This document shows positions 9,290 to 38,512 of a stretch of DNA of 40,028 bases, one piece after another. The notes under the pieces were generated by a model. That model ran no database searches. It was not told where the DNA came from and saw only the letters and a list, made by a program, of their open reading frames with translations. Position 1 is the first letter of the stretch. Each line of letters begins with the position of its first letter. This DNA comes from Bacillota bacterium (GTDB taxonomy: Bacteria; Bacillota; Clostridia; Oscillospirales; Oscillospiraceae). The stretch is taken from positions 1-40,028 of the forward strand of contig JAUNCL010000020.1 of assembly GCA_030535235.1 (NCBI GenBank), written 5' to 3'. A program made the position numbers and the translations under genes.

Positions 9290-9291
9290 AC

Positions 9292-9675: not shown

Positions 9676-9750
9676 GATAGGTTCCTCCAAATATCATTAT
9701 TTTTTATTTAATACGAAGTTCAGTGGGGGCGAAGCCCGCCCCGGGGGAGA

Positions 9751-10842: not shown

Positions 10843-10889
10843 AATACTCGCTCCTTTTTCGTGTCTGTCGCAATGACGCAATATCGGTT

Positions 10890-10924: not shown

Positions 10925-11090
10925 AAGTTCTGTGCCTCCGTAACATAACCTGAAAGATTCTCCGCATGGGGATTGCCTCATCGGTGCGAATGCTCGCTCT
11001 CCGGAGTTTCGTCCAAAACCGGTCCTCTTTGCCTGAGAGTTTCCGCAGCCCCTTCGGCTCCGCTGAATGCGGTATCTCCCGGTTTTCTCA
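10925..11090 (-). ncRNA. Tandem glycine riboswitch
   Basis: The minus strand carries two consecutive glycine aptamers. Aptamer I (about 11090-11012) has its P1 stem from 11086-11079 with 11022-11015, a GCCGAAGGGGC core segment, and the typical ACTCTCAGGCAAAGAGGACC 3' part. Aptamer II (about 11010-10930) has CCGGAGAGCG, CACCGATGAGGCAA and ATCTTTCAGG. Glycine riboswitches upstream of gcv operons are known ON switches that couple glycine excess to its breakdown. Confidence 0.93.
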
Positions 11091-11154
11091 TCCGAACGAT
11101 ATTGATATTGTCTCTGTTCGTCGTCCATTCTATACAGGACGCCAATCCACTTTT

Positions 11155-15170: not shown

Positions 15171-15175
15171 CTGCC

Positions 15176-16483: not shown

Positions 16484-16486
16484 GGC

Positions 16487-16903
16487 TCAGCCCTCCGTGA
16501 TGGCGAAGGAGAAGGTGCTCTTCACGCAGAGGGTCTCCCCCACGTATCCCTCTCCCTCGGCGAAGTAAAAGGGGTGCTTGGCCCGGGTAATGCGGCACTT
16601 GGTCTGAAAGAGGTCCCCGGGCTTCACCGGGGCCTTGAAGCGTACCTCCTTCATGCTGGTGTACATGGGGACCTGCCCCACTTCCAGCTTGTCCCGGAGC
16701 AGGATGCCCACGGTCTGGGCCAGGATCTCGCAGAGGATGACCCCGGGGACCACGGGGGCGCCGGGGAAATGCCCCTGGAGGAACCACTCGTCCCCCCTCA
16801 CCCGGTACTTGCCCAGGGCGAACTCCCCCTCCTGCTCCAGCTCCTCCACCAGGAGCATGGGCTCCCGGTGGGGCAGAATGGTTTTGATCTCGTCTTTTGT
16901 CAT
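16487..16903 (-). CDS. fabZ: 3-hydroxyacyl-ACP dehydratase
   Basis: A 138-residue hot-dog-fold dehydratase of the fatty acid elongation cycle. The catalytic pair is His45 (LQGHFPGAPVVPG) and Glu59 (CEILAQ), and the PHREPMLLVE start motif is present. ATG 16903 overlaps the accB stop (ATGA). It sits between accB and accC, an arrangement common in Firmicutes fab/acc clusters. No fabA, fabM or fabN-like isomerase is seen in the window, so how unsaturated chains are made, if at all, is not shown here. Confidence 0.96.
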   Translation of the reverse strand: MTKDEIKTILPHREPMLLVEELEQEGEFALGKYRVRGDEWFLQGHFPGAPVVPGVILCEILAQTVGILLRDKLEVGQVPMYTSMKEVRFKAPVKPGDLFQTKCRITRAKHPFYFAEGEGYVGETLCVKSTFSFAITEG

Positions 16904-17328
16904 GACTGCCTCTTCAGTCGGAAGAGCCGGCAGCCGTAGTCCACCACCTGGCCGTTTTCCGCGCAAATCTCCAAAATTTCGCCGTCCTCCTCGGCCATGA
17001 TCTCGTTCATGAGCTTCATGGCCTCCACGATGCAGAGGGTCTGGCCCTTTCTCACCCGGTCGCCCACCTTCACAAAGGGCTCGGCGTTCTCGGCGGGGGC
17101 GGTGTAGAAGACCCCCACCATGGGGGAGCACACCTCCACGCTGTCTTCCACCGGGGCGGCGGGCTGGGGGGCGAAGACCTGGACGGTCTCACTCCCACGG
17201 GCCGGGGCGGCGGGCGCCGCCGGGGTCCGCTCCAGGCGGACCACCCGGTCGTTCTCGGTGACCTCCAGGCCGGTGAGGCCCAGCTCTGCCATAAGGGCGG
17301 CGTACTTTCTGATATCCCCTTCGTTCAT
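16900..17328 (-). CDS. accB: Biotin carboxyl carrier protein
   Basis: A 142-residue carrier. The N-terminal helix (about 1-35) is followed by a Pro/Ala-rich linker (about 36-62) and a biotinyl domain (63-142). The biotinylated residue is Lys105 in VEAMKLMNEI, at the standard spacing from the C-terminus. ATG 17328 overlaps the fabF stop by 4 bases; an earlier in-frame start inside fabF is not supported. It carries carboxyl groups from AccC to AccAD. Confidence 0.95.
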   Translation of the reverse strand: MNEGDIRKYAALMAELGLTGLEVTENDRVVRLERTPAAPAAPARGSETVQVFAPQPAAPVEDSVEVCSPMVGVFYTAPAENAEPFVKVGDRVRKGQTLCIVEAMKLMNEIMAEEDGEILEICAENGQVVDYGCRLFRLKRQS

Positions 17329-18572
17329 AGGCGTACCTTTCGGAATGCCAGGCAGGCGTTGTGGCCGCCGAAGCCCAGGGAGTTGGACAGGCACAGGTCA
17401 ACCTCCGCCTTTACCGCCTGGTTGGGGACGTAGTTCAGGTCACATTCGGGGTCGGGCTCCTCCAGGTGGATGGTGGGGGGAATGACCCCCTCCTCCATGG
17501 CCTTCAGGCAGGCCACGGCCTCGATGGCCCCGGCAGCTCCCAGCATGTGGCCGGTCATGGACTTGGTGGAGCTGACATAGGCCTTTCTGGCCTCCTCCTC
17601 CCCCAGGGCCCGTTTGATGGCAAGGGTCTCCGCCACGTCGTTCAGGGGGGTGCCGGTGCCGTGGGCGTTCACGTAGACGGTCTCGCCCTTCTGATACCCG
17701 GCCTCGGCCAGGGCCTGTTCCATGGCCCGGGCGCCGCCATCGGCATCGGGCCGGGGGGCGGTGATGTGGTAGGCGTCGCAGGTGGAGCCGTAGCCGCAGA
17801 CCTCGCCGTAGATCTTGGCCCCCCGCTTCACAGCGTGCTCATACTCCTCCAGGACCAGAGCGGCGGCCCCTTCGCCGATGACGAAGCCGCCCCGGCGCTG
17901 GTCGAAGGGCAGGCAGGCGGCGTCGGGGTCCGGGGACACGGACAGGGCCTGCATGTTCACAAAGCCCGCCACGCCGCACTGGGAAATGGCGGCCTCCGCG
18001 CCGCCGGTGATGACCGCGTCGGCGTAGCCGTGGCGGATGGCCCGCAGGGCCTCGCCGATGGCGTTGGAGCCGGAGGCGCAGGCGGTAACTGCCGGCAGTG
18101 CGGCCCCCTGGCAGTTGAACCGGATGGCGATCTGCCCGGCGGCCATGTTGGCAATCATCATGGGGACGAAGTAGGGGGAGACCCGCCGGGGCCCCCGGTT
18201 CAGGAGCTTGGCGTGCTCCTCGCTAAAGGTGCGGATGCCGCCGATGCCGGAGCCGAAGTAGACGGCCACCCGGTCCGGGGGCAGGGTGCCGATGACCCCA
18301 CTCTCCTCCACCGCCTGGCAGGCGGCGGCCAGCCCGAACTGGGCGTAGCGGTCGCTGCGGAGGGTCTCGGTCTTATCCATATAGGCCCGGGGGTCGAAGT
18401 CCTTGACCTCGGCCGCCACCTTGGCCTTGTAATCGGTGGTGTCAAACAGGGTGATGGGGCCGATGCCGTGGACGCCGGCGATCATGTTCTTCCAGCACTC
18501 CTCCACGGTGTTGCCGATGGGGCTGATGACCCCCAACCCGGTCACCACCACTCTACGGTTGGTATTTTCCAT
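17325..18572 (-). CDS. fabF: 3-oxoacyl-ACP synthase II
   Basis: A 415-residue thiolase-fold condensing enzyme that elongates acyl-ACP with malonyl-ACP. Active-site residues are all visible: Cys165 (VTACASGSNAIG), then the histidines in NAHGTGTPLND and KSMTGHMLGAAGA. It begins RRVVVTGLGVISPIG as the family does. No FabH (initiating synthase) is in the operon, so chain initiation must come from elsewhere in the genome or from FabF itself. It overlaps accB by 4 bases and is separated from fabG by 93 bp with no clear signal. Confidence 0.96.
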   Translation of the reverse strand: MENTNRRVVVTGLGVISPIGNTVEECWKNMIAGVHGIGPITLFDTTDYKAKVAAEVKDFDPRAYMDKTETLRSDRYAQFGLAAACQAVEESGVIGTLPPDRVAVYFGSGIGGIRTFSEEHAKLLNRGPRRVSPYFVPMMIANMAAGQIAIRFNCQGAALPAVTACASGSNAIGEALRAIRHGYADAVITGGAEAAISQCGVAGFVNMQALSVSPDPDAACLPFDQRRGGFVIGEGAAALVLEEYEHAVKRGAKIYGEVCGYGSTCDAYHITAPRPDADGGARAMEQALAEAGYQKGETVYVNAHGTGTPLNDVAETLAIKRALGEEEARKAYVSSTKSMTGHMLGAAGAIEAVACLKAMEEGVIPPTIHLEEPDPECDLNYVPNQAVKAEVDLCLSNSLGFGGHNACLAFRKVRL

Positions 18573-18665
18573 AATTAAACTCTCCTAAACAAACGCAGTT
18601 CCCGTCACCGGGCGCAAAGCCCCCGGCATAAAACCACGTCCGAAGCGCAATTAAAGTTCTTTTTG

Positions 18666-19388
18666 TCACATGCCGCCGTCTACCGGCAGCACCTGTCCGG
18701 TGATATAGCTGGCCTGGGCCAGAAAGGCCACCGCCTCGGCCACTTCCTCGGCCTGCCCCACCCGGCCCATGGGAATGGACTTGACCAGGTCGGGGTTGTC
18801 AATGAGACCCCTGGTCATGTCGGTCTCGATGAAGCCGGGGGCCACGGCGTTGCAGGTGATCCCCTTGGGGGCCAGCTCCCGGGCCACCGACTTGGTGAGG
18901 CCCACCAGACCAGCCTTGGCGGCGGAATAGTTGGCCTGACCGGGGTTGCCCACCAGACCGGACACCGAGGTGATGTTCACGATGGCCCCCGCCTTCTTCC
19001 GGAGCATGATCCCGGCGCAGTGGCGGATCAGGTTGAAAGCCCCTTTCAGATTCACATCCAGAACCTCGTCAAAGGCCTCCTCCTTCATCATCAGGATCAG
19101 GCCGTCCCGGGTGATCCCGGCGTTGTTCACCAGGATGTCGATGGTGCCGAAATCGGCCTTGATTTGGGCCACGGTCTCCTTCACCTGGTCAAAGTCGGCT
19201 ACATTGCAGCGGTAGGCCCGGGCAGTGACGGCATGGTCCTGGCACCGGTCGCAGACCTGGTGGGCCAGCTCCTGGTTGCCCGCGTAGATGACGGCCACGT
19301 TGGCCCCCTGGCTGGCCAGCTTTTGGGCGATAGCCGCGCCGATGCCCCGGGAACCGCCGGTGACCACGGCAACCTTTCCGGTCAGCAT
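18666..19388 (-). CDS. fabG: 3-oxoacyl-ACP reductase
   Basis: A 240-residue short-chain dehydrogenase. The NADPH motif TGGSRGIG (residues 10-17), NNAG (88-91) and the catalytic Ser141, Tyr154 and Lys158 (NYSAAKAG) are intact. It reduces beta-ketoacyl-ACP in the elongation cycle. Its start lies within the end of fabD (7-base overlap), so both are translated together. Confidence 0.96.
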   Translation of the reverse strand: MLTGKVAVVTGGSRGIGAAIAQKLASQGANVAVIYAGNQELAHQVCDRCQDHAVTARAYRCNVADFDQVKETVAQIKADFGTIDILVNNAGITRDGLILMMKEEAFDEVLDVNLKGAFNLIRHCAGIMLRKKAGAIVNITSVSGLVGNPGQANYSAAKAGLVGLTKSVARELAPKGITCNAVAPGFIETDMTRGLIDNPDLVKSIPMGRVGQAEEVAEAVAFLAQASYITGQVLPVDGGM

Positions 19389-20299
19389 CCCGCCACCTCC
19401 TCCAGAATTTTGTCCAGGTCGGCCTGGGTCTCCATGGGGAAGGTCCGGACCGTCTTGTCGATCTTCTCAATGAGCCCGCAGAGGGTCCGCCCGGGGCCCA
19501 GCTCAACAAAGGTGTCCACCCCGGCGGTGATCATGTTCCGCACGATGGTCTCCCACCGGACGGGACTGCTGATCTGCCGGGCCAGCAGGGCTCTGGGGTC
19601 CCCGGCGTAGACTTCGCCGGTGCAGTTGGAATACAGGGGGATGACCGGGACCCGCAAATCGGTTTCAGCCAAAACCGCTGCAAAGTCCTCGGCGGCCTTT
19701 GCCATGAAGGGGGAGTGAAAGCCCCCCTGCACCTTCAAAGGCAAGGCCCGCCCTCCCGCCTCCTTCACAGCGGCGGAGAAGGGTTTTAAGCTCTCTTTCC
19801 GGAAGGCCACAGACACCTGGCCGGGGCAGTTGTAGTTCACGGGATAGACCTCTTCAAACTGCCCGCAGACTGCCTCCACCTGCTGGTTGGTGAGCTTCAG
19901 CACCGCCGCCATGGTGGAGGGATTGGACTCCGCCTCCCGGGCCATCAGCTCTCCCCGGCGGCAGACCAGACGGAAGCCGGTCTCCAGATCGGCGGCCCCG
20001 CTGTAGGTCAGCGCGGCCAGCTCTCCCAGGGAGAACCCAGCAGTCATGTCCGCCTTGACCCCTTTTTCCGCCAGGGCGGCGGCGGCGGCCAGCTCCACGG
20101 CGAACATACAGGGCTGGGTGTTGGCGGTGTTCTTCAACACCTCGTCAGAGCCGGAAAAGCACTGGTCCGAGGTGCCGGGCCGGAGGGCGTCCAGCCTGGC
20201 AAAGACTTCCCTGGCCCCCTGGGAGCACTGGGCCAGCTCCCGGCCCATGCCGGGGTACTGGGCTCCCTGGCCGGCGAAAACGAATGCTATCTTACCCAT
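19382..20299 (-). CDS. fabD: Malonyl-CoA:ACP transacylase
   Basis: A 305-residue acyltransferase that loads malonyl onto ACP. It starts MGKIAFVFAGQGAQYPGMG, has the nucleophile Ser90 in GFSLGE and the partner histidine in GGFHSPFM, and is of usual length. The ATG at 20299 lies inside the 3' end of fabK (13-base overlap); a much longer upstream extension in this frame only shadows fabK. Final residues overlap the fabG start. Confidence 0.95.
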   Translation of the reverse strand: MGKIAFVFAGQGAQYPGMGRELAQCSQGAREVFARLDALRPGTSDQCFSGSDEVLKNTANTQPCMFAVELAAAAALAEKGVKADMTAGFSLGELAALTYSGAADLETGFRLVCRRGELMAREAESNPSTMAAVLKLTNQQVEAVCGQFEEVYPVNYNCPGQVSVAFRKESLKPFSAAVKEAGGRALPLKVQGGFHSPFMAKAAEDFAAVLAETDLRVPVIPLYSNCTGEVYAGDPRALLARQISSPVRWETIVRNMITAGVDTFVELGPGRTLCGLIEKIDKTVRTFPMETQADLDKILEEVAGC

Positions 20300-21231
20300 T
20301 GTGTGGCTCCTTTCAGGATGGGCTCGGCCCCTTCCATCACGTCCCGGACGATCTCCGCGGCGGGCTGGACTTTTTTGACCATGGCCGCGATCTGGCCGGA
20401 GAGGAAGCAGCCCTTTTCCAGGTCGCCCTCCTCCACCGCCAGCCGGAGCCGGCCGGTAGCCATCTCGTCCAGGGTGGCCTCGTCCACGCCGCCGAACTCC
20501 GCCTTGGCGTATTCCCGGGGGAAGTTGGTCCGCAGGCTGCGGACGGGGTGGCCGGTCTTCTTGCCGGTGACCATGGTGCACAGGTCCGTGGCCTTCAGGA
20601 TGCGGTTTTTATACTCGGGGTGGATGCTGCACTCCTCGGCGCTGAGGAACCGGGTGCCCATCTGGACCCCGCAGGCCCCCAGCATGAAGGCCGCCGCCAC
20701 CCCCCGGCCGTCGGCAATGCCGCCGGCGGCGATGACGGGCAGGCTGGTCACGTCGCAGACCTGGGGAACCAGGACCATGGTGGTCAGCTCCCCCACGTGT
20801 CCGCCGCTCTCCCCCCCTTCGGCAATGAGGGCGGAGGCCCCCAGCCGGGTCATGAGCCTGGCCATGGCCACCGAGGCCACCACGGGGATGACCTTCACCC
20901 CGGCCTCTTTCCACAGGGCCATGTACTTGGATGGGTTTCCCGCGCCGGTGGTGACCACCGCCACCTTTTCTTCGGCCACCACCTGGGCCACCTCCTCCAC
21001 GAAGGGGCTCATGAGCATGATGTTCACGCCGAAGGGCTTTTCGGTGCGGGATTTGGCGATGTGGATCTGCTCCCGGACGTAGTCCCCGGGGGCGTTGCCC
21101 GCGGCGATGATGCCCAGGCCGCCCCCCTCGGAGACCGCCGCCGCCAGCTTGCCGTCGGCGATCCAGGCCATGCCCCCCTGGAATACGGGATACTCGATCC
21201 CCACCAGGTCACATAAGGGTGTGCGGATCAT
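20287..21231 (-). CDS. fabK: Enoyl-ACP reductase II (FabK)
   Basis: A 314-residue FMN-dependent enoyl-ACP reductase of the nitronate monooxygenase-like TIM-barrel family, the last step of each elongation cycle. Supporting segments are YPVFQGGMAWIADG at the N-terminus, AEGGESGGHVG (FMN phosphate and active-site loop), IAAGGIADGRG and LGACGVQMGTRFL. Placement directly after acpP and before fabD is the arrangement of streptococcal and clostridial fab operons. FabK enzymes are not sensitive to triclosan, unlike FabI (family knowledge). Start overlaps acpP by 4 bases. Confidence 0.94.
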   Translation of the reverse strand: MIRTPLCDLVGIEYPVFQGGMAWIADGKLAAAVSEGGGLGIIAAGNAPGDYVREQIHIAKSRTEKPFGVNIMLMSPFVEEVAQVVAEEKVAVVTTGAGNPSKYMALWKEAGVKVIPVVASVAMARLMTRLGASALIAEGGESGGHVGELTTMVLVPQVCDVTSLPVIAAGGIADGRGVAAAFMLGACGVQMGTRFLSAEECSIHPEYKNRILKATDLCTMVTGKKTGHPVRSLRTNFPREYAKAEFGGVDEATLDEMATGRLRLAVEEGDLEKGCFLSGQIAAMVKKVQPAAEIVRDVMEGAEPILKGATQWVR

Positions 21232-28067: not shown

Positions 28068-28095
28068 TTGACATTTCCTATCACTTGGGTATAGT
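28068..28095 (+). promoter_or_regulatory. Promoter of the B12-controlled cluster
   Basis: TTGACA (28068-28073), 16-base spacer, TATAGT (28090-28095). Transcription would start near 28102, giving a leader of about 440 nt that contains the cobalamin riboswitch and a terminator. Confidence 0.7.
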
Positions 28096-28181
28096 AATGA
28101 TAGGCGGCCCACTATATCCGCCCGACAACCCTATATTGCTCCGGCTTTTGTGGCAAATGCGCGACCCCGTCCAGACGGGTG

Positions 28182-28400
28182 GGACACGCATTCTTGTTCG
28201 CTGAACAAGGGAACCAGGTGAGAATCCTGGACACGGCGGAAGGGTTTTCCGCTGTGCTGTAAGCATGGAGCGCCGTCTTTTTCCGCGAAAGCGGGTCACT
28301 GGCAGCAGCTGGGAAGGCGAAGGCGGCGCGGTGAGGGGATCTCCTCGGGACATGTCAGTCAGAAGACCTACAAAAGGGCAGCCCCGTCTCCACAGGCGGG
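28182..28400 (+). ncRNA. Cobalamin (B12) riboswitch
   Basis: Conserved pieces appear in order: GGGAACCAGGTGAGAATCC (28208 on), GCTGTAAGC (about 28256), a CACTGG segment followed by CTGGGAAGGC (28298-28319), and the B12-box region AGTCAGAAGACCTA (28357-28370). A paired segment (CCCGTCTCCACAGGCGGG) follows. Outer limits are approximate. These RNAs bind adenosyl- or related cobalamins and usually switch off B12 uptake genes when B12 is plentiful. Here the switch controls the SLH/DUF4430/ECF genes downstream. Confidence 0.95.
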
Positions 28401-28430
28401 TGTTTGCCATACCTTATTTTTGTGAGAGAC

Positions 28431-28471
28431 AAAAGCGGATGCGATGCTGCATCTGCTTTTTTCGCTTTTTT
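28431..28471 (+). terminator. B12 riboswitch terminator
   Basis: Arms 28431-28442 (AAAAGCGGATGC) and 28449-28460 (GCATCTGCTTTT) are followed by TTCGCTTTTTT. It lies between the riboswitch and the first gene (start 28545), the expected position for transcriptional OFF control. Confidence 0.88.
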
Positions 28472-28544
28472 ATGAAAGCCGGCTTACCCTGTTCTCCGTC
28501 TTCGGGCGTTTTGGATAGAGAGAATTTAAGTAAGGAGGCTTTTT

Positions 28545-31500
28545 ATGAAAAAGAGAATTTTGTCTCTGGTCATGGCCCTGGTGCTGGCAGTGGGATTGCT
28601 GCCGGTGGGGGCGATGGCGGGGGATACTGTAACAGTCACTGTTACTATGGATACCCAAAGTGTGGCAGAAACTGTCACGAACTATGGTCTGACGGCGCTT
28701 CCCGCCTCAACTCAGGTCACTGTCCCAGCGGACAGTACCATTGCCGCCGTCATGACCCAGTGGGCACTGGATCAAAGTATAACGGTATCCGGCGCAGACG
28801 ACGGCTATATTACAGCAATCGGTGATTTTGGCGACTACGCCTCTAAACAGTTTGATGCCCTGTGCGCAAATGCCGGATTGAAATCAAAACCGATTGATTT
28901 CCAATATGCCGGATGGACGTATAGGTTGAACGGTCAGTACGGAAATGGAATCGCCATTGACAAGGTCAGTCAAGGAGATACGATCGCGTTCCGTTACGGA
29001 GTCTATATGACCAGCATGACCAGCGGTACCTGGGTACAGGTAGACCATGAATTCCTCGATGCCTATAACGCCGTGGAAACATTGATTGGCCAAGCAAACG
29101 CAGCAGATGAACAAAACTATACCGCAGAACAATGGGCAGCCCTTCGGGCAGCAAAGTCCTCTGCGGAAAATCTGAAAGCAGAGATTGACACGGAAGCCTC
29201 AGGCATGTGGTTTAACTATTTTGCTAATAAAACTACCACACTTTGGGGACCATATTCTCCCACAGACAATCTGCAAAAAGCACAGCAAGCGCTGGAAAAC
29301 GCCATAAACAAAATAGTCTCTCCCTCCAGCATTACGTTTGAGAAAAACAATATTACTTTGTCTCTTGGGAACACATATACCATCCAACCTACCGTCGATC
29401 CCGATGGAACATCTCAGGAGGTGACCTACGAAGCTTTCTTAGGTGATACCTGCTTTTCTGTTTCCGACACGGGTATTATTACTCCCACCAAGACGAGCTC
29501 TCTTTGTTGGATCAAGGTTACAAGCAAAATCGACTCCAACGTATTTGAATATTTTAAATTCAAAATTATTTCCAACGCTGAAATGGTAACAACGGCCAAG
29601 GATCAACTCACCTGGGATCTCATCAAGGGACTAAACACAAGTCCTTCCTCTGTGACCTCCCCCCTGTCGCTCCCCTCGCAGATCACCTTGACCGACAACC
29701 TCGGCACCGTCTCTATCGTCTGGTCTAGCAGCACCCCCAACGTAATCGCCAACGACGGCACGATCACCCGCCCGGCAGAGAGCACCCAAGTCACCCTTAC
29801 CGCCACCCTTACTGCCGGGACAGAGACCGATGCCATATCGATTCCTGTCACTGTGACACCTCCCAGCTCCGCCGACGCAGACGCTTCCAAGATAGCCGCC
29901 CTTATGGATGGCATTGCATCCGGCTACACAGATACCTATAATAACTCCAAAGTCATCATCGACATGGCAGCCTATGAAGACTTCAAGCCGACCACTACGC
30001 ACAAACTCTCGGCGGACGCAAAGCAGAAGTATGTCAACTTTGTGGCCTCCTCTGTCACCGACAGCAGTGCCGGCGACACCATCTTTGCGCTGTCCATGAT
30101 TAGCTTGCAGGGTCTGGGCTATGACCCACAGCAACTCTATCCCGTTAACAGCAACACAGCCCTCAATATCGTTACCAAGCTGAACGGCGCAACCCACTCT
30201 GAAAGCGCCTGGAACGCCCCCTATACCCTGGCGGCCTATAACCAGGGCAGCTATGATACGGATTCCTATGAACAGGCCCTGATCACCAAAATCCTGGCCA
30301 AGCAAAAAAGCAACGGCAGCTGGACAGAATGGGGCGACAGCATCCAAACCACCTCCAATATGATCGTGGGGTTGTCCTTCTACCGCGATCAGGAAACTGT
30401 GAAGGCTGCCATCAACAAGGCAGTGACCTATCTCTCCAACCAGCAGAAAGCCAACGGAACTTTTGACGCCTATGGATCCGGCCCGGACACTGACGCCTGC
30501 GCCAATGTTGTCATGGCCCTGGCCACCGTGGGAATCAACCCCGATACGGACCAACGCTTTATCAAAAACGGCAACAGCGCCCTGGATGGCCTTCTTCTCT
30601 TTGCTCTGGAAGATAACAGCGGTTTTGGCTACCAGGACAACATTACCCTGAATCCCTACGCAACAGAAGAGGGCTTCCGCGCCCTCATCGCCGCTGCCCA
30701 GGTGATGTCCACCGGTGAGCCCTACAACATCTACGATTTCAGCGCCAACCCCGTCACTCCCGCCCGGGAGACCAGCAACAGCTCTTCGGACAAGCCCACC
30801 ACGCCTCCCACAGCCCCCGACAACGACATCACCGTCACCGTGACCATCAAGGCGGACACCGGCTACTGGCTACGCTCCAAGTCGGTCACCGTCAGCGAGG
30901 GCTCCACGGTCTGCGACGCCTTCGTCACCGCCCTGGAGGGTACCGGAATCACCCAGGTGGGGGCGGAAACAGGCTATATCCGCTCCATCACCAAAAACGG
31001 CGTCACCCTGGCGGAGTTCACCCAGGGCCCCAACTCCGGCTGGCTCTATAAGGTCAACGGGGAACTGCCCACCGTGGGCGTGACCACCTGCACCTTAAAC
31101 GCCGGGGACTCCGTCGTCCTCTACTACACCGAGGACTGGACCAAAGACCCCAGCGCCGGGGGCAACAGCGGCACAGTCACCCCGGCTCCCTCTACCCCCG
31201 CCTCCTCCCTCACCCCGGAAGTCTCCGCCAACAGCAAGGGTGAGGCCACGGTCAAGGTGGACGCCAACGCCGTCGAGGACAGTCTGGCCCAGGCGGAGAA
31301 GGAGAACGCCTCCGCCCTGGTCATCGCCCCCAAGGTCACCGGCCAGGTCGACACCGTCACCACCCAGCTCCCCCTGTCGGCAGCGGAGACCATCTCCCAG
31401 GACAGCGATCTGGACCTGACCGTCCAGACCGAGGACGCCGCCGTCACCATCCCCAACGAGGCCCTGGGCTCCATCGTCACCCAGTCCTCCGGCAGCCAGA

Positions 31501-32375
31501 CCATCGAGATCGTGGTAAAGACCTGTGACCCGGATACTCTGAAGGATCAGGCGGCGGGGCTGGACCTGGAGAACGCCGCGGCGGTGGAAGTGACCGTTCT
31601 CTCCGGCGGCTCCCCCATCACCACCTTCGGGGGCCAGACCCTCGCCATCGACCTGCCCGTGGACAAAACCGTCTACACCGAGGGGACCCAGTACAAGGTC
31701 CTGGTCCTCAGCGCTGACGGAACGGTGGAAACCCTCACCGGCCAGTGCATCCGCGAACAGGGCCGCCTGGTGGTCCGGGTGTTCACCTCCCACCTGAGCA
31801 CCTTCCTGGTCACCACCCAAACCGTCCTCCCCTTCACCGACGTGGACGGCCACTGGGCCCTGGACGCCATCCGGTTCGTCTACGACCAGGGGCTGATGAC
31901 CGGCACCAAGGAGACCCTCTTCTCCCCCAACAGCCCCCTGAACCGGGCCATGCTGGCCACCATTCTCTACCGGATGGAGGGCTCCCCTGCCGTCACTGGC
32001 GAGAACCCCTACACCGATGTTGCCGCCGGGACCTGGTACACCGACGCGGTGCTCTGGGCCTCGGAGCAGGGCATCGTCAACGGCTACGGCAACGGCAAGT
32101 TTGGTCCCCTGAACAACATCACCCGGGAGCAGCTGGCGGCCATGCTCCTGCGGTATTCCGACTACAAAAAGTATAACACCGACACCCGGAACGACCTGGC
32201 TTCCTACGCCGATGCAGACGACATCAGCGCCTGGGCTCTGGAGGCCCTCCGGTGGGCCAACGCCCAGGGCCTGGTGACGGGCCGCACGGAAACCACCCTG
32301 GTCCCCCAGGGGGACACCACCCGGGCCGAAACGGCCACCATCCTCATGCGCTATCTGGACACCATCGCCGGATAA
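28545..32375 (+). CDS. SLH-anchored surface protein with transcobalamin-like domains (predicted B12 receptor)
   Basis: A 1276-residue exported protein. Domains in order: signal peptide (1-25); first DUF4430-like, transcobalamin C-terminal-type domain (about 26-168, with GWTYRLNGQYG and a QGDTIAFRYG end); helical stretch (170-258); two Ig-like domains (about 259-343 and 344-441, the second with VIANDGTITRP); an alpha/alpha-toroid of the prenyltransferase/terpene-cyclase type (about 442-740, with repeats QKSNGSW and QKANGTF); a Ser/Pro linker; second DUF4430 domain (about 760-865, SGWLYKVNGELP and AGDSVVLYYTEDW); a beta-rich region (about 880-1090); and three SLH repeats (about 1095-1276) for cell-wall attachment. 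Toroid plus DUF4430 is the layout of human intrinsic factor, and the gene is the first behind a B12 riboswitch, hence the predicted role in capturing cobalamin. Ligand binding is not proven. Strong AAGGAGG before the ATG. Confidence 0.85.
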   Translation: MKKRILSLVMALVLAVGLLPVGAMAGDTVTVTVTMDTQSVAETVTNYGLTALPASTQVTVPADSTIAAVMTQWALDQSITVSGADDGYITAIGDFGDYASKQFDALCANAGLKSKPIDFQYAGWTYRLNGQYGNGIAIDKVSQGDTIAFRYGVYMTSMTSGTWVQVDHEFLDAYNAVETLIGQANAADEQNYTAEQWAALRAAKSSAENLKAEIDTEASGMWFNYFANKTTTLWGPYSPTDNLQKAQQALENAINKIVSPSSITFEKNNITLSLGNTYTIQPTVDPDGTSQEVTYEAFLGDTCFSVSDTGIITPTKTSSLCWIKVTSKIDSNVFEYFKFKIISNAEMVTTAKDQLTWDLIKGLNTSPSSVTSPLSLPSQITLTDNLGTVSIVWSSSTPNVIANDGTITRPAESTQVTLTATLTAGTETDAISIPVTVTPPSSADADASKIAALMDGIASGYTDTYNNSKVIIDMAAYEDFKPTTTHKLSADAKQKYVNFVASSVTDSSAGDTIFALSMISLQGLGYDPQQLYPVNSNTALNIVTKLNGATHSESAWNAPYTLAAYNQGSYDTDSYEQALITKILAKQKSNGSWTEWGDSIQTTSNMIVGLSFYRDQETVKAAINKAVTYLSNQQKANGTFDAYGSGPDTDACANVVMALATVGINPDTDQRFIKNGNSALDGLLLFALEDNSGFGYQDNITLNPYATEEGFRALIAAAQVMSTGEPYNIYDFSANPVTPARETSNSSSDKPTTPPTAPDNDITVTVTIKADTGYWLRSKSVTVSEGSTVCDAFVTALEGTGITQVGAETGYIRSITKNGVTLAEFTQGPNSGWLYKVNGELPTVGVTTCTLNAGDSVVLYYTEDWTKDPSAGGNSGTVTPAPSTPASSLTPEVSANSKGEATVKVDANAVEDSLAQAEKENASALVIAPKVTGQVDTVTTQLPLSAAETISQDSDLDLTVQTEDAAVTIPNEALGSIVTQSSGSQTIEIVVKTCDPDTLKDQAAGLDLENAAAVEVTVLSGGSPITTFGGQTLAIDLPVDKTVYTEGTQYKVLVLSADGTVETLTGQCIREQGRLVVRVFTSHLSTFLVTTQTVLPFTDVDGHWALDAIRFVYDQGLMTGTKETLFSPNSPLNRAMLATILYRMEGSPAVTGENPYTDVAAGTWYTDAVLWASEQGIVNGYGNGKFGPLNNITREQLAAMLLRYSDYKKYNTDTRNDLASYADADDISAWALEALRWANAQGLVTGRTETTLVPQGDTTRAETATILMRYLDTIAG

Positions 32376-32453
32376 CCCTCTCTCCCCTGCGGCGGCTCCC
32401 CACCATTGCGTGGAGAGCCGCTGTCGGGCTATCTATGACCAGGAGGAATCCCT

Positions 32454-34067
32454 ATGACACATCGGAAACAACGGGCCCTGCCCCTGCTGCTGGCCCTGTG
32501 CCTGACCCTCAGCCTGACCGTCCAGGCCTCTGCCGCCAAGGCCGACGCTGCCCTCCCCGACACCGCCCGCACCGTCCTCACCACCGTCCAGTCCCCCCAG
32601 GTGGGGTCCATCGGCGGGGAGTGGGCCGTCCTGGGTCTGGCCCGCAGCGGCTATGCCGTCCCGGAGACTTGGTATCAGAGCTACTACGCCGCCGTGGAGG
32701 CCCATGTAAAAGCCTGCCGGGGCGTGCTCCATGAGAAGAAGTACACCGAGTACTCCCGCCTGATACTGGCGCTCTCCGCCATCGGCAAGGACCCCCGGAA
32801 CGTGGCAGGCTATGATCTGACCGCCCCTCTGGGCGATTTTGAAAAAACTGTCTGGCAGGGGGTCAACGGCCCCATCTGGGCCCTCATCGCCCTGGACTGC
32901 CGGAACTACCCCGTGCCGCAAACTCCCCAAGCCAAAACCCAGGCCACCCGGCAGATGTATGTAGACGAGATCCTCTCCCGCCAGCTGGACAACGGTGGGT
33001 GGAGCCTCTCCGGCTCCGCCGCCGACCCGGACCTCACCGCCATGGCCCTCCAGGCCCTGGCCCCCTATCGGACCCAGACCGCCGTGGCCCAGTCGGTGGA
33101 CCGGGGCCTGACCTGCCTGTCCGCCCTCCAGAACCGGGACGGCACCTTCTCCGCCCAAGGGGAGGCCAACGCCGAGAGCACCGCCCAGGTTATCGCCGCC
33201 CTGTGCGCCCTGGACCTCTCCCCGGAGGACCCCCGGTTCATAAAGAACGGCCACACCCTGCTGGACGGCCTGCTCACCTTCCGCCGGTCTGACGGGAGTT
33301 TCCTTCACACCGCCGGCGGGGGCGGCTCCAGCCAGATGGCCACCGAACAGGCCCTGCTGGCCCTGACCGCTCTTGATCGGACGGAGGCCGAGCAGAAGGG
33401 CCTCTATCAGATGACCGATGCCGCCGACCTCACCGGCGGCTCCTCCGCCCAGGGCCTGCCCGGCAAGCACGCCGACGTGACCCCCGTCCCGGTCACCACC
33501 CCCGGCAAGACCTTTTCAGACATCACCGGCCACCCCAACCAGACGGCCATCGGGGCTCTGGCCGCCCGGGGGATCATCAACGGCATGACAGAGACTACCT
33601 TCGCCCCCGACGACACCATGACCCGGGCCCAGTTCGCCGCCATCGTGGTCCGGGGCCTGGGCCTGCCCCAGAAGGCCGGCTCCGCCTTCTCCGACGTGAA
33701 GGCCGTGGACTGGTTCGCCCCCTACGTAGGGACCGCCTGCGCCTACGGCATCGTCAACGGCCGGTCCGCCGCCGTCTTCGACCCCAACGGTACCATCACC
33801 CGCCAGGAGGCCGCCGTGATGGTGGCCCGGGCCGCCAGGCTCTGCGGCCTGGAAACCGACCTGGACGACGACGCCGTCCGGGATATTCTGGCCCAGTTCA
33901 CCGACTACCCCACCGCCGCCGACTGGGCCAAGGAAGGCCTGGCCTTCTGCTACCGCCAGGGCATCCTGGAGGATAGCGCCCTGACCATCCGGCCCACGGC
34001 CCATATTCTCCGGTGCGAGATCGCCCAAATGCTGTACAACCTCCTTGGCAGCGCCCAACTTCTCTGA
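32454..34067 (+). CDS. SLH-anchored alpha/alpha-toroid protein (transcobalamin alpha-domain-like)
   Basis: A 537-residue exported protein: signal peptide (about 1-28, cleavage after ASA), an alpha/alpha-toroid (about 35-330) and three SLH repeats (about 354-537). The toroid shows prenyltransferase/squalene-cyclase-type repeats with QLDNGGW (near 177), QNRDGTF (near 226) and RRSDGSF (near 277), and an N-terminal GGEWAVLGLARSG motif. No DUF4430 domain is attached; that half is supplied by the next gene, 17 bases downstream. The pair could form a two-chain equivalent of intrinsic factor. AGGAGGA precedes the ATG. The 78-bp gap from the previous gene has a GC hairpin (about 32391-32423) without a T run, so transcription probably continues. 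Confidence 0.82.
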   Translation: MTHRKQRALPLLLALCLTLSLTVQASAAKADAALPDTARTVLTTVQSPQVGSIGGEWAVLGLARSGYAVPETWYQSYYAAVEAHVKACRGVLHEKKYTEYSRLILALSAIGKDPRNVAGYDLTAPLGDFEKTVWQGVNGPIWALIALDCRNYPVPQTPQAKTQATRQMYVDEILSRQLDNGGWSLSGSAADPDLTAMALQALAPYRTQTAVAQSVDRGLTCLSALQNRDGTFSAQGEANAESTAQVIAALCALDLSPEDPRFIKNGHTLLDGLLTFRRSDGSFLHTAGGGGSSQMATEQALLALTALDRTEAEQKGLYQMTDAADLTGGSSAQGLPGKHADVTPVPVTTPGKTFSDITGHPNQTAIGALAARGIINGMTETTFAPDDTMTRAQFAAIVVRGLGLPQKAGSAFSDVKAVDWFAPYVGTACAYGIVNGRSAAVFDPNGTITRQEAAVMVARAARLCGLETDLDDDAVRDILAQFTDYPTAADWAKEGLAFCYRQGILEDSALTIRPTAHILRCEIAQMLYNLLGSAQLL

Positions 34068-34084
34068 TAAGATAGGTGATAACC

Positions 34085-34954
34085 ATGAAGCGGAACCCAT
34101 TGAACTGGAAACACCTCCTGGCCGCCCTGGGGGTGGTTCTGGTGCTGGCCCTGGCCTTCTGGGCCGGCGGGGCCGCCCCCGGCACCGAGGGACTCCCCGA
34201 CCAGACCGCCAGCCTCCAGGCCGAATCCACGGCCCAGGAGCCCCCGGCAGAGGAACCCCGGGAAGCCCCGGAACCGGAACCGGAGGAGGAGCCCGACCCG
34301 GAAACCGGCCTGGAGAGCCGCCCCGGCGGAACCCAGGGCGGCATGACCGCCCAGGAGAAGGAGGAGGCCGCCAACCAGCTGGCCGGCGGGTCGTCCGCCC
34401 CGGACCAGAAGGGGGACGGGGCGTACTCCAGCCTGCAGGGCATGCCCATTGACCCGGCCACCGGCAAGGACCCCTACGGCACCCAGCCGGTCCCCGAGGG
34501 AAAGCCCGTGCCGGTGGAGCCCCAGGAGGCGGAGGTCACCGACCAGGCCCTCACCTGCACCCTCACCGTCCGGTGCGACAGCATCCTGGCCCACATGGAC
34601 TGGCTCGACCCGGAAAAGGCCGAGCTGGTCCCCGACGACGGGGTTCTCTTCCCCACCGCCACCGTCACCTTCTATGAGGGGGAGAGCGTCTTCCACGTCC
34701 TCCAGCGGGAGATGAAAAAGGCGGGGATCCACCTGGAATTCACCAACACCCCCGTCTACAACTCCGCCTACATCGAGGGCATCGGCAACCTCTACGAATA
34801 CGACTGCGGGGAGCTGTCCGGCTGGATGTACCAGGTCAACGGCTGGTTCCCCAACTACGGCTGCTCCCGGTATCCGCTCCAGGCGGGAGACGACATCCAG
34901 TGGGTCTACACCTGCGACCTGGGGCTGGACGTAGGCGGCCGGACCGCCGCCTGA
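34085..34954 (+). CDS. Membrane-tethered DUF4430 protein (transcobalamin beta-domain-like)
   Basis: A 289-residue protein with one transmembrane anchor (about residues 10-27), a long Pro/Glu-rich spacer (about 30-135) that could reach through the wall, and a C-terminal DUF4430 domain (about 155-280). The domain has SVFHVLQREMKKAG, GELSGWMYQVNGWFPNYG and QAGDDIQWVYTCDLG, the family's best conserved stretches. DUF4430 resembles the C-terminal beta domain of transcobalamin, which closes over bound B12. ATG 34085 is preferred over an in-frame GTG at 34076 because AGGTGA lies before it. It sits between the toroid gene and the ECF T gene, suggesting it hands ligand to the ECF importer. Confidence 0.82.
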   Translation: MKRNPLNWKHLLAALGVVLVLALAFWAGGAAPGTEGLPDQTASLQAESTAQEPPAEEPREAPEPEPEEEPDPETGLESRPGGTQGGMTAQEKEEAANQLAGGSSAPDQKGDGAYSSLQGMPIDPATGKDPYGTQPVPEGKPVPVEPQEAEVTDQALTCTLTVRCDSILAHMDWLDPEKAELVPDDGVLFPTATVTFYEGESVFHVLQREMKKAGIHLEFTNTPVYNSAYIEGIGNLYEYDCGELSGWMYQVNGWFPNYGCSRYPLQAGDDIQWVYTCDLGLDVGGRTAA

Positions 34955-34979
34955 TCCCACAGGAAAGGACGTGATCCCC

Positions 34980-35876
34980 ATGCCCCAGACCGATCTCTTT
35001 TCCCGGTGTCACCCGGGGGTGAACGCCCTCTACTTCGCCCTGGTGCTGGGCTTCACCATGTTCTTCACCCATCCGGTGAGTCTGGCCCTCTCCCTGGGCT
35101 CCGCCCTGGCCTACGGGGCGGTTCTCCGGGGAAAGCGGGGCCTTCTCCGCAACCTGGGGTATACCCTCCCCATCTTCCTGCTGGCGGCGGTGCTGAACCC
35201 CGCCTTCAACCACCAGGGGGCCACCATCTTGGCCTATCTGCCCTCGGGCAACCCCCTGACCCTGGAGAGCATCCTCTACGGCCTGGCCGCCGCCGGGATG
35301 CTGGCCGCCGTGCTGGTGTGGTTCTCCTGCTGCACCCAGGTGATGACGGCGGATAAATTCGTCTACCTCTTCGGCCGGGTCATCCCCGCCCTGAGCCTGA
35401 TCCTCAGCATGACCCTCCGGTTCATTCCCCGGTTCACCCGGCAGCTCCGGTCGGTGAGCCAGGCCCAGAGGTGCGTGGGCCGGGACGTGACCGACGGCTC
35501 CCCCATCCGGCGGCTGCGCCGGGGGATCACCGTGCTGTCCATCGTGGTCACCTGGAGCCTGGAGGACGCCATCCAGACGGCGGACTCCATGAAGGGCCGG
35601 GGCTACGGTCTGCCCGGCCGCACGGCCTTCTCCCTGTACCGTCTGGACGGCCGGGACAGGGGCCTGCTCCTCTGGCTGGCCTTCTGCGGCCTGTACGTGG
35701 CCTCCGGTTGGATCTCCGGGGGACTGGCCTGGCGGTACTATCCCACGGTCCAGGGCGTCCTCACCGGGGTCTTTCCCCTGAGCGTTCAGGCCGTCTACCT
35801 GGCCCTGTGCCTGACCCCGGTGATCCTCTGCGGAAAGGAGGCGCGGACGTGGAGACGTTTGCTGTCCAAGACCTGA
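34980..35876 (+). CDS. ECF transporter T component (EcfT-like)
   Basis: A 298-residue integral membrane protein with about six hydrophobic segments. It is the energy-coupling scaffold linking the S component to the ATPases. The coupling-helix motif common to T components is visible as DSMKGRGYGLPGRT (about residue 205), and an earlier GRVIPALSLILSMTLRFIPRF segment is typical of the family. ATG 34980 follows GGAAAGGA; an in-frame GTG at 34971 is too close to that site. Its 3' end overlaps the next gene by 28 bases, so the T and ATPase subunits are translated together. Because the S-like domain is fused to the ATPases, this T component is probably dedicated to one substrate. Confidence 0.88.
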   Translation: MPQTDLFSRCHPGVNALYFALVLGFTMFFTHPVSLALSLGSALAYGAVLRGKRGLLRNLGYTLPIFLLAAVLNPAFNHQGATILAYLPSGNPLTLESILYGLAAAGMLAAVLVWFSCCTQVMTADKFVYLFGRVIPALSLILSMTLRFIPRFTRQLRSVSQAQRCVGRDVTDGSPIRRLRRGITVLSIVVTWSLEDAIQTADSMKGRGYGLPGRTAFSLYRLDGRDRGLLLWLAFCGLYVASGWISGGLAWRYYPTVQGVLTGVFPLSVQAVYLALCLTPVILCGKEARTWRRLLSKT

Positions 35877-38467
35877 CCTTCGCCTATCCCGAATCCAACG
35901 CCAACGCCCTGGACGGGGTCACTCTGACCCTGGAGCCGGGGACCTTTTGCGTCCTCTGCGGCCCCTCTGGCTGCGGCAAGACCACCCTTCTCCGGCAATT
36001 AAAACCCGCCCTGGCCCCCCACGGGGTCCGGTCCGGGGCGATTCTGTTCCGCGGCCAGCCCCTGGAGGCTCTGGACCCCCGGACCCAGGCCGCCGCCATC
36101 GGCTTCGTCCAGCAGGACCCGGAGACCCAGATCGTCACCGACAAGGTCTGGCACGAGCTGGCCTTCGGCCTGGAGAGTCTGGGGGTGGACACCCCCGCCA
36201 TCCGCCGCCGGGTGGCGGAGATGGCCTCCTTCTTCGGCATTCAGACCTGGTTCCACCGGAACACCGCCGACCTGTCCGGGGGCCAGAAGCAGCTTCTGAA
36301 CCTGGCCGCCGTGATGGTCCTGGAGCCGGAGATCCTCATCCTGGACGAGCCCACCAGTCAGCTGGACCCCATCGCCGCCGGGGATTTCCTGGCGGTGCTG
36401 GGCAAGATCAACCGGGAGCTGGGGACCACCATCCTTCTGACCGAGCACCGGCTGGAGGAGGTTCTTCCCCTGGCGGACCGGGCGGTGGTGATGGACCGGG
36501 GGCGGGTTCTGTGCCAGGGCACCCCCAGTCAGGTGGGACAGGCCCTGCGGTCCCTGGACCACCCCATGTTCCGGGCCATGCCCACCCCCATGCGGGTGTG
36601 GGCGGCCACCGACAGCGACGCCCCCTGCCCGGTCACCGTCCGGGAGGGGCGGGACTGGCTGACCGCTTACGCCGCCCAGCATCCCCTGTCTCCCCTGCCG
36701 CCGGAGTCCCCCCGGGACGAGACCGCCCCGCCGGTGATCGCCGCCCACGAGGTCTGGTTCCGGTATGAAAAGCAGGCCCCCGACGTGGTCCGGGACCTGT
36801 CCCTGGAGGTAAAAAAGGGGGAGCTGCTGGCCCTGCTGGGGGGCAACGGCGCTGGCAAGACCACCACCCTCAAGCTCCTCTCCGGTCTGGAGACCCCCTA
36901 CCGGGGGGAGCTTCAGGTCACCGGAAAAACCGTCCTTCTCCCCCAGAATCCCCAGGCCCTCTTTGTGAAAAAGACCCTGCGGGAGGACCTGACGGAGCTG
37001 CTGCGGGAGCATCCCCTCTCCCCCGAGGAACAGGCGGCCCGGATGGCCCGGTCCGTCCGTCTCTGCCGGCTGGAGGGCCTGCTGGACCGGCACCCCTACG
37101 ACCTCTCCGGCGGTGAGCGGCAGCGGGCGGCCCTGGCCAAGGCCCTGATGCTGGATCCGGAGATCCTCCTGCTGGACGAGCCCACCAAGGGCCTGGACGC
37201 GGCGTTCAAGGAAGTCTTCGGGGCCATCCTCCAGGACCTGATCCGCCGGGGCGTCACCGTCCTCATAGTGAGCCACGACCTGGAATTCTGCGCCCGCCAC
37301 GCCCACCGGTGCGCCCTGTTTTTCGACGGGAGCGTGGTGGCCGACGGCTCTCCCCGGGCCTTTTTCTCCGGCAACCGGTTCTACACCACCGCCGCCAACC
37401 GGATGGCCCGTCCCCTGCTGCCCCAGGCGGTGACCCCCGAGGACCTGATGGCCGCCTGCGGCGGGCAGGCCCCCCCGGACCCCCTTCTCACCCGGGATGA
37501 CACCCCCCTTCCCCCCACGCCCTGCCAGGAGGAGGAAGTCCGGCAGCAGCTCCCCCGGTGGAGGAAAGCCCTGGCGTTCCTGGCCGGAGGCGCAGCCCTG
37601 CTCCTGTTTTTCGCCCTCACGGGGCTGGGGGACTTCTCCGCTGCGCCGTCGGTCCTCACCGGCAGCCGGAAGGTCCTGTACGGGGGCTTTCTCCTGACCC
37701 TCTTCCTCCTGGCCGGGGCGGTGGCCCAGCGGGAGCCGGGAACCCCGCCGCCTCCCCGGAAGAAAACCGCCCTGTCCCGGCGGTTTCTCCTGGCAGCGGT
37801 TCTCATTCTCCTGCTCATCCCCGTGACCCTCTTTGCCGGGGAGTTCCTCCTGGGGGGACGGAAATACTACTTCATCGCCCTGCTCATCCTGCTGGAGACC
37901 ATGCTCCCCTTCTTCCTGGTCTTTGAGGGGCGAAGGCCCCAGGCCCGGGAGCTGGTGCTGGTGGCCTCCCTCTGTGCCATCGGCGTGGCGGGCCGGGCGG
38001 TCTTCTTCATGCTGCCCAGCTTCAAGCCGGTGCTGGCCCTGACCATTATCGCCGGGGTGGCCCTGGGTGGCGAGACCGGGTTCCTGGTGGGGGCCATGAC
38101 CATGCTGGTCTCCAACATTCTCTTCTCCCAGGGGCCGTGGACCCCCTGGCAGATGTTCGCCGCCGGCATCATCGGCTTTCTGGCGGGCTTTCTCTACCGC
38201 CGGGGCCTCCTCCGCCGGAGCCGGACCGCCCTGTGCGTCTTCGGTGCCCTGGCAGCCATCCTGATTTACGGCGGCATCATGAACTCCGCCTCGGCCCTGA
38301 TGTGGGCCCACACCCTGGACTGGAAGATCCTGCTGGCCTACTGGGCCACCGGCTTCCCCATAGACTGCGTCCACGCCGCCGCCACCTGGCTCTTCCTCTG
38401 GTTCGCCGCCGAGCCTTTTCTGGAAAAGCTGGACCGGATCAAGGTGAAGTACGGACTCCTCGACTGA
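35849..38467 (+). CDS. ECF transporter fusion: two ATPase domains plus an S-component-like membrane domain
   Basis: An 872-residue single chain. ATPase 1 has Walker A GPSGCGKTT (about residue 37), LSGGQKQ (142) and Walker B ILILDEPTSQLD (161). ATPase 2 has Walker A GGNGAGKTT (331), LSGGERQ (419) and Walker B ILLLDEPTKGLD (438). After a linker come four hydrophobic segments (about 572-695) and an S-component-like domain (about 698-872) with AGVALGGETGFLVGAMTMLVSNILFSQGPWTPWQM. S components bind the vitamin in the membrane; given the B12 riboswitch this one is most likely a cobalamin S component (CbrT-like), by inference. Start is GTG 35849 with AAAGGAGG 7 bases upstream, inside the T gene. All ATPase motifs are intact. 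A-A-S fusion is unusual, as S components are normally separate proteins. Confidence 0.88.
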   Translation: METFAVQDLTFAYPESNANALDGVTLTLEPGTFCVLCGPSGCGKTTLLRQLKPALAPHGVRSGAILFRGQPLEALDPRTQAAAIGFVQQDPETQIVTDKVWHELAFGLESLGVDTPAIRRRVAEMASFFGIQTWFHRNTADLSGGQKQLLNLAAVMVLEPEILILDEPTSQLDPIAAGDFLAVLGKINRELGTTILLTEHRLEEVLPLADRAVVMDRGRVLCQGTPSQVGQALRSLDHPMFRAMPTPMRVWAATDSDAPCPVTVREGRDWLTAYAAQHPLSPLPPESPRDETAPPVIAAHEVWFRYEKQAPDVVRDLSLEVKKGELLALLGGNGAGKTTTLKLLSGLETPYRGELQVTGKTVLLPQNPQALFVKKTLREDLTELLREHPLSPEEQAARMARSVRLCRLEGLLDRHPYDLSGGERQRAALAKALMLDPEILLLDEPTKGLDAAFKEVFGAILQDLIRRGVTVLIVSHDLEFCARHAHRCALFFDGSVVADGSPRAFFSGNRFYTTAANRMARPLLPQAVTPEDLMAACGGQAPPDPLLTRDDTPLPPTPCQEEEVRQQLPRWRKALAFLAGGAALLLFFALTGLGDFSAAPSVLTGSRKVLYGGFLLTLFLLAGAVAQREPGTPPPPRKKTALSRRFLLAAVLILLLIPVTLFAGEFLLGGRKYYFIALLILLETMLPFFLVFEGRRPQARELVLVASLCAIGVAGRAVFFMLPSFKPVLALTIIAGVALGGETGFLVGAMTMLVSNILFSQGPWTPWQMFAAGIIGFLAGFLYRRGLLRRSRTALCVFGALAAILIYGGIMNSASALMWAHTLDWKILLAYWATGFPIDCVHAAATWLFLWFAAEPFLEKLDRIKVKYGLLD

Positions 38468-38474
38468 ATGAACC

Positions 38475-38512
38475 AAAAAGAAGGACACGACTTGCGTCAT
38501 GTCCTTCTTTTT
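38475..38512. terminator. Terminator of the B12 cluster, shared with a tRNA 3' end
   Basis: Arms 38475-38491 and 38496-38512 with a TTGC loop and flanking A and T runs. One position is a mismatch in plus-strand RNA but a G-U pair in minus-strand RNA, suggesting it evolved as a tRNA terminator on the minus strand. It now also ends the ECF operon. Confidence 0.85.

Follow-up and report, generated by a model that had tools for sequence, protein, structure and literature searches.

A likely B12-riboswitch-controlled corrinoid uptake operon joining toroid and DUF4430 surface proteins to a CbrT-type ECF importer

Bacterial relatives of the vitamin B12 carriers of animals were described by Burroughs, Balaji, Iyer and Aravind in 2007 (PMC1796856; this and the other papers are cited here for excerpts of their text). 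The proteins in question are secreted and combine an alpha/alpha toroid with a beta-grasp (SLBB) domain of the transcobalamin C-terminal type; they are often paired with a second protein of this sort, in operons with CbiO and CbiQ, and their hosts usually lack key B12 synthesis enzymes. These authors proposed that the proteins scavenge B12 and that animals acquired their B12 carriers from such bacteria. On the side of transport, a proven importer of cobalamin and cobinamide of the energy-coupling factor (ECF) type has CbrT as its S component (PMC5997447), and reconstructions of gut genomes count CbrUVT among the B12 transporters (PMC6593275). Here we analyse a 40,028-base stretch of DNA from a Bacillota bacterium of the family Oscillospiraceae (the window), which is the entire contig JAUNCL010000020.1, contig 35 of 51 in a genome of 2.25 Mb. 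Between positions 28068 and 38467 its plus strand carries, in this order, a promoter-like site, a cobalamin riboswitch, a terminator and five packed genes, which encode three surface proteins (A, B and C), an ECF T component and an ATPase-ATPase-S fusion. This operon is likely to be a corrinoid capture-and-import system of a B12-using monoderm, in which the surface proteins feed a CbrT-type importer. The core idea of B12 scavenging by bacterial toroid and transcobalamin-like proteins is already in the 2007 paper and is not new here; the operon shares with the systems described there the toroid with a transcobalamin-type domain (the type by a marginal match), signal-like N-termini (judged by hydropathy), a CbiO-like ATPase and a CbiQ-like protein.

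The control region agrees with the original prediction of a cobalamin riboswitch with a terminator, made from the sequence of the window. The aptamer exceeds the gathering cut-off of its family, RF00174, its match covering model positions 45-169 of 189, and an expression platform is present in the form of a terminator hairpin (Table 1). At E ≤0.001 it is the only RF00174 match in the genome, with 150 of the 205 first-look candidates scored. The scan for promoters and terminators found 9 promoter-like sites where shuffled sequence gave 1.2, and 14 terminator-like sites where it gave 8.7. Switches that shut their genes when B12 is plentiful usually have this layout, with the aptamer followed by a terminator and both ahead of the first start codon; scarcity of B12 would let transcription pass the terminator. 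The five genes are indeed close or overlapping, as predicted: with start codons assigned mechanically, the gaps are 78 bp (A-B), 8 bp (B-C) and 16 bp (C-T), and the T gene overlaps that of the fusion by 28 bp.

The predicted CbrT-type importer is also recognizable, and its S domain is specifically CbrT-like. When the 305-residue S part was compared with 177,635 distinct PDB sequences, the sole match up to an E value of 10 was 6fnp_A, and a profile built from 31 relatives again found this chain, at a far lower E value (Table 1) and with the next match at 0.002. Although labelled just 'Membrane protein' in the table of matches, 6fnp chain A is what we take to be CbrT, which fits the paper on that protein. 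The other components of a CbrT-type transporter, a T component and two ECF ATPases, were found as well. The CbrT-like core of the S part is preceded by some 130 residues with extra hydrophobic segments (37550-37930); in alignments whose rows are trimmed to the matching stretch, stand-alone S proteins are mostly shorter before this core.

The genome fits a consumer of the vitamin. A search for the B12-binding domain gave one strong match (E 8.1e-27) and one below the cut-off, and the protein with the strong match, which has 795 residues and a MetF-like neighbour of 309 residues, reads by eye as methionine synthase. CbiD, the sole synthesis marker tried, has no match in this genome, which is 97.69% complete; this single marker does not suffice to place the host among those of the 2007 description, which usually lack key B12 synthesis enzymes. 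Since a B12-binding protein is present and CbiD is without a match, the host is probably a user of B12 that lacks anaerobic synthesis of the corrin ring. These data also bear on a different reading of the transporter, as a Cbi/NikMNQO-type importer of cobalt or nickel, which a B12 riboswitch would control since cobalt is needed to make B12. Such an importer would account for the CbiQ-like T component and for the CbiO-like family names of the ATPases, yet we consider it very improbable because the S domain is CbrT-like and CbiD is unmatched. In addition, no CbiM model for the fusion was among the families listed (25 of 33 in one scan and 25 of 195 in another), and large toroid proteins would have no evident use in metal uptake.

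The surface proteins have the domain make-up expected from the first reading, that is, SLH repeats, two DUF4430 domains, toroids and a membrane-tethered DUF4430 protein, according to both Pfam and home-made profiles from relatives, from which the domain boundaries in A, B and C were taken. Pfam finds SLH (8.9e-33), DUF4430 (1e-17, over two stretches), aBig_2 and a sub-threshold cyclase-toroid match in A, and SLH (7.3e-29) with a sub-threshold prenyltransferase-toroid match in B; both toroids, weak in Pfam, are clear with the profiles made from relatives. In A, the toroid followed by DUF4430 reproduces the domain order described for transcobalamin (PMC1796856). By hydropathy alone, the N-termini of A and B are hydrophobic and signal-like, and C has a strong hydrophobic segment near its N-terminus. 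The toroid of B also has a match to the NCBIfam 'SCO2321 family membrane protein', at 47.8 bits against a cut-off of 300, which hints at a Streptomyces relative. A further DUF4430 protein, of 167 residues and with a hydrophobic N-terminus, is encoded near a contig end (L174; G000 contig 19, 7757-8260), behind genes read as PlsX and RNase III and with no RF00174 match there.

A comparable arrangement recurs widely. Our survey covered 245 genomes of the order, the host's own included, drawn evenly from a larger group, and the S domain was present at E ≤1e-8 in 95 of them. A first set of 61 loci, made up of the window and 60 of the 98 listed S places outside it (nearly all top-ranked), was mapped with profiles from the window and its relatives; 54 loci have at least 7 kb upstream of S, 7 being dropped for length. 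Of these 54, 50 have a T gene and 41 have DUF4430; a toroid occurs in 35, always together with DUF4430, the ATPase-ATPase-S fusion in 33, and SLH on a protein of the toroid or DUF4430 type in 15. A second set, drawn as the best 80 of at least 585 S loci, left 51 with enough sequence (29 dropped), all 51 of which have T, with DUF4430 in 42, a toroid in 38, the fusion in 45 and SLH in 23. Toroid and DUF4430 both lie upstream of S in 35 of 54 loci of the first set and in 38 of 51 of the second, whose hosts include Lutispora thermophila, Fusibacter paucivorans, Paenibacillus silvestris, Paenibacillus lupini, Ruminococcus bromii, Blautia parvula and a Bacillus. A joint toroid-DUF4430 profile matched 68 of 398 genomes of the phylum at E ≤1e-20, in some over one domain alone. 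DUF4430 occurs in 92 of the 95 S-bearing genomes versus 70 of the 150 without S; considered on its own as a B12 marker it was rejected, because it is found without S and in controls such as Lactococcus lactis.

Some loci depart from the common order. In one (L064) the riboswitch and a DUF4430 gene lie downstream of S, and in another (L089) DUF4430 is upstream of S while T and the ATPases are downstream. S-type genes were also met on contigs binned as a Nitrososphaerota archaeon (L151) and a Paludibacteraceae bacterium (L107), which perhaps represent misbinned Clostridia contigs, or transfer.

The control element recurs together with the genes. The search for RF00174 covered the host's own genome and 65 others, of which 59 carry S and 6 do not, with stricter filters for the relatives, and its position was counted at the 53 of 61 mapped loci that have at least 9 kb upstream (8 dropped), within a distance limit of 16.5 kb. 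A same-strand RF00174 match lies upstream of S in 26 of these 53 loci, one of them (L038) below the Rfam cut-off, where 0.26 would be expected from the per-genome density; because the genomes are related, a formal probability would be meaningless and it is the ratio of observed to expected that matters. In genomes with a single RF00174 match, 17 of 25 S loci hold that riboswitch. Seven named loci were also scanned directly: in four (L152 of Lutispora thermophila, L162, L164 of Paenibacillus lupini, and L169) the riboswitch stands just before the surface genes, in L171 it lies solely downstream of S in the stretch examined, and in L104 and L154 the stretch scanned held no match. Behind the riboswitches of five relatives, a clear terminator of at least 11 pairs was found in L162 and L152, and none of that size in L033, L063 and L164. 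For 45 of the 80 loci of the second set, the genome was searched for RF00174 and gave a match in 39 of 45, 33 over the cut-off; these matches were not mapped and were not used for position. The same gene order behind B12 riboswitches in other Clostridia, named at the outset as a check of the prediction, does recur. At L032 (just beyond the locus, G214 C20), L034, L035, L040, L047 and L169, two B12 riboswitches lie no more than about 1.5 kb apart, perhaps for a steeper response or for two cobamides.

The riboswitch also accompanies the surface genes where the transporter is elsewhere. There were at least 150 DUF4430 matches and, among the matches listed, 82 lie within 16.5 kb of a same-strand S match. 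Away from S, in the riboswitch-scanned genomes, 15 of the 37 DUF4430 matches listed have a same-strand RF00174 match less than 7 kb upstream and 22 have none; the 15 loci are spread over 14 of 28 genomes, with 0.17 expected within 16.5 kb. Ten such loci were inspected, and in all ten the riboswitch precedes toroid and/or DUF4430 genes; in eight, more than 3 kb beyond these genes is free of further ECF genes. A genome of the window's own genus (G162) provides an example: an A-like toroid-DUF4430-SLH protein, with an open frame of 1640 residues, stands behind a riboswitch of its own, and toroid, DUF4430, T, ATPases and S are on a different contig.

Fusions link the components further. Ten chains without SLH join toroid to DUF4430 (L046, L076, L078, L079, L080, L083, L086, L087, L132 and L145), eight of them with two hydrophobic segments in the linker, and three chains have two toroids (L116, L152 and L164), as if A and B had merged. 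For C-type proteins, the first 170 residues of each open frame include a hydrophobic 19-mer in 93 of 96 cases. Taken with the fusion of the ATPases to S, these chains suggest a joint action of A, B and C on the route to S.

How this might come about can be sketched. Held to the wall by its SLH repeats, A would act as a one-chain trap consisting of a toroid and a transcobalamin-like beta domain; at the membrane, B with its toroid and C with its membrane-tethered beta domain would make up another clamp of this kind. The corrinoid would pass from A to B and C and on to the CbrT-like S domain, driven inward by the T component and the pair of fused ATPases. What the sequences show directly is the content and order of the genes, the regulatory motif, the homology of S to CbrT, the recurrence in many Bacillota and the B12 riboswitches before surface genes that lie apart from the transporter; that the proteins bind corrinoid, which way the switch works, in what order the ligand is handed over and that B pairs with C are what we infer. 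The full two-stage relay across a thick wall, in which an S-layer trap A loads a split B/C clamp docked on the ECF complex and delivering into the CbrT-like subunit, is a tentative proposal that we hold to be somewhat doubtful. If true, it would be a living bacterial form of the intrinsic factor and transcobalamin design, and its grip on B12 might suffice to strip the vitamin from neighbours or from the carriers of a host.

Several observations weigh against reading the operon as a corrinoid capture-and-import system. Neither toroid nor DUF4430 stands beside S in 13 of the 54 loci of the first set and 9 of the 51 of the second. DUF4430 is found in genomes that lack S (70 of the 245) as well as in the Lactococcus lactis and Methanosarcina controls, so that by itself it is no sign of B12. 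Upstream RF00174 matches are absent from 27 of the 53 S loci, in a search that loses weak matches, and the stricter filters are perhaps part of the cause. Two of the riboswitch loci distant from S (L181 and L182) stop at a contig edge, the latter inside a T gene, and are maybe broken operons. The comparison with animal proteins cuts both ways. In favour of the reading, the best PDB match of a DUF4430 profile of 83 sequences is transcobalamin-2; against it, the match is marginal, at E 0.0098. Unrelated chains come next, from about 0.1, and another three transcobalamin sequences stand at 0.22, the transcobalamin alignments all falling near the C-terminal ends; an earlier profile of 61 sequences likewise placed transcobalamin-2 first, at E 0.13. 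The result is in line with the homology already published, though marginal when taken alone. The three toroid profiles retrieved squalene-hopene cyclases, prenyltransferases and macroglobulins from the PDB, and no toroid of transcobalamin or intrinsic factor; one of them lists transcobalamin-2 at E 0.95, solely across the DUF4430 part. When 40 members of the toroid alignment were scanned with Pfam, DUF4430 and the cyclase and prenyltransferase toroid models came up, and the 25 families listed, out of 83, included no animal cobalamin-binding model.

Since the toroid profiles find no toroid of an animal B12 carrier, kinship of the bacterial toroid with intrinsic factor is unsupported by sequence, although a shared fold may exist even where sequences do not match. 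The likeness to intrinsic factor that was originally proposed is, in sequence, marginal for DUF4430 and unsupported for the toroid; the wider claim of a surface-plus-ECF uptake system under a B12 riboswitch is supported, with an S domain that is specifically CbrT-like. DUF4430 itself is presumably the beta-grasp domain of the 2007 work, an equation to which the transcobalamin match of the profile lends weak support.

The same observations could be explained if the transporter imported B12 and A, B and C served another ligand or task, such as adhesion, S-layer structure, or a sugar or peptide. Adhesins often carry SLH and Ig-like domains, the toroid resembles many proteins unrelated to B12, and the 70 genomes with DUF4430 and no S would be accommodated. 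We nevertheless judge this unlikely: B12 riboswitches precede toroid and DUF4430 genes that have no adjoining transporter, toroid and DUF4430 genes lie upstream of T in many lineages, and fusions join the toroid to DUF4430 in the order seen in transcobalamin. Another possibility concerns the substrate, which might be a precursor or a particular cobamide, for example cobinamide or pseudocobalamin, and not cobalamin itself. RF00174 is silent on which corrinoid is carried, and CbrT imports both cobalamin and cobinamide (PMC5997447); but nothing favours a precursor over the vitamin in an analysis that tried CbiD as its only synthesis marker and did not search salvage genes, and we think this quite unlikely. 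Capture and import of corrinoids by the surface proteins and the CbrT-type importer thus remains our preferred reading. A widespread, riboswitch-marked capture system of this kind offers named genes to study, for instance in Paenibacillus and Lutispora, and the operon bears on the 2007 proposal that animal B12 carriers came from such bacteria.

The features of the operon are collected in Table 1. Elsewhere in the window, on the minus strand, a tandem glycine riboswitch (RF00504 twice, 10936-11091) lies ahead of the glycine cleavage T and P genes (6546-10881), and 11880-21231 holds fatty acid synthesis genes, namely parts of acetyl-CoA carboxylase, an AMP-binding enzyme, a ketoacyl synthase and an acyl transferase, as well as a gene for a nitronate monooxygenase-like protein.

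Table 1. Features of the riboswitch-controlled operon, in window positions
Feature	Position	Strand	Evidence
Promoter-like site TTGACA-16-TATAGT	28068..28095	+	11 of 12 consensus matches
Cobalamin riboswitch aptamer, RF00174	28208..28369	+	49.3 bits; gathering score 31.5
Intrinsic terminator hairpin, 13 pairs, T-rich tail (expression platform)	28431..28460	+	Terminator scan; also in minimum-energy fold
Gene A, 1276 residues, SLH protein with two DUF4430 and a toroid	28545..32375	+	Pfam, home-made profiles
A: first DUF4430, weak	28692..29021	+	22 bits, home-made profile; Pfam counts two DUF4430 stretches in A
A: aBig_2 (atrophied bacterial Ig domain)	29592..29858	+	Pfam
A: alpha/alpha toroid	29883..30770	+	232 bits, home-made profile
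A: second DUF4430 (transcobalamin C-terminal-like), directly behind the toroid	30861..31154	+	Pfam, profiles
A: three SLH repeats (cell-wall anchor)	31818..32366	+	Pfam, profiles
Gene B, 537 residues, toroid and SLH	32454..34067	+	Pfam, home-made profiles
B: toroid domain	32556..33440	+	Home-made profiles
Gene C, 292 residues, membrane-anchored DUF4430 protein	34076..34954	+	DUF4430 at 34640-34936, Pfam 2e-16
ECF T component, CbiQ-like, 301 residues	34971..35876	+	Pfam CbiQ 6.6e-7
ECF ATPase-ATPase-S fusion, 872 residues from GTG	35849..38467	+	ABC_tran twice; ECF S models
CbrT-like core of the S domain	37934..38455	+	6fnp_A E 6.8e-12; profile E 4.8e-20

How, then, does the operon compare with the systems already described? 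Beyond what is set out in the excerpts of the 2007 paper (PMC1796856) are the riboswitch, the S component with its likeness to CbrT, SLH anchoring, the loci split from the transporter, the pattern of fusions and the layout of A followed by B and C. A search for experimental tests of such surface proteins found none in the open-access literature, which excludes most subscription papers and bioRxiv preprints; the gene evidence makes the 2007 prediction firmer and easier to test. The ECF-CbrT complex of Lactobacillus delbrueckii (PMC5997447, PDB 6fnp) likewise consists of a CbrT-homologous S component, two ATPases and a T component; its module, however, is common to other S components and the excerpt names no surface partner, whereas here the ATPases and S form one chain and surface proteins are encoded in the same operon. 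CbrUVT, for which no surface protein is named in the excerpt either, is an ECF transporter set for B12 that has letters of its own, U, V and T (PMC6593275), of which U and V would make up a dedicated module. The Bacteroides proteins BtuG, with BtuB (PMC6143338), and BtuH (PMC8941943) resemble the operon, as read here, in that a surface capture protein feeds a B12 transporter. The proposal of a monoderm counterpart to BtuG/BtuB is a functional analogy and not a structural one, in that BtuG is a beta-propeller lipoprotein serving an outer-membrane transporter (PMC6143338) and Pfam, at E 0.05, gave no beta-propeller model for any of the three surface proteins. Finally, intrinsic factor, transcobalamin and haptocorrin of animals share with A and with the toroid-DUF4430 fusions a toroid followed by a beta domain in one chain, but the route of the animal carriers ends in receptor endocytosis, while the bacterial proteins appear to be anchored to the wall or membrane and their route to end in an ECF importer.

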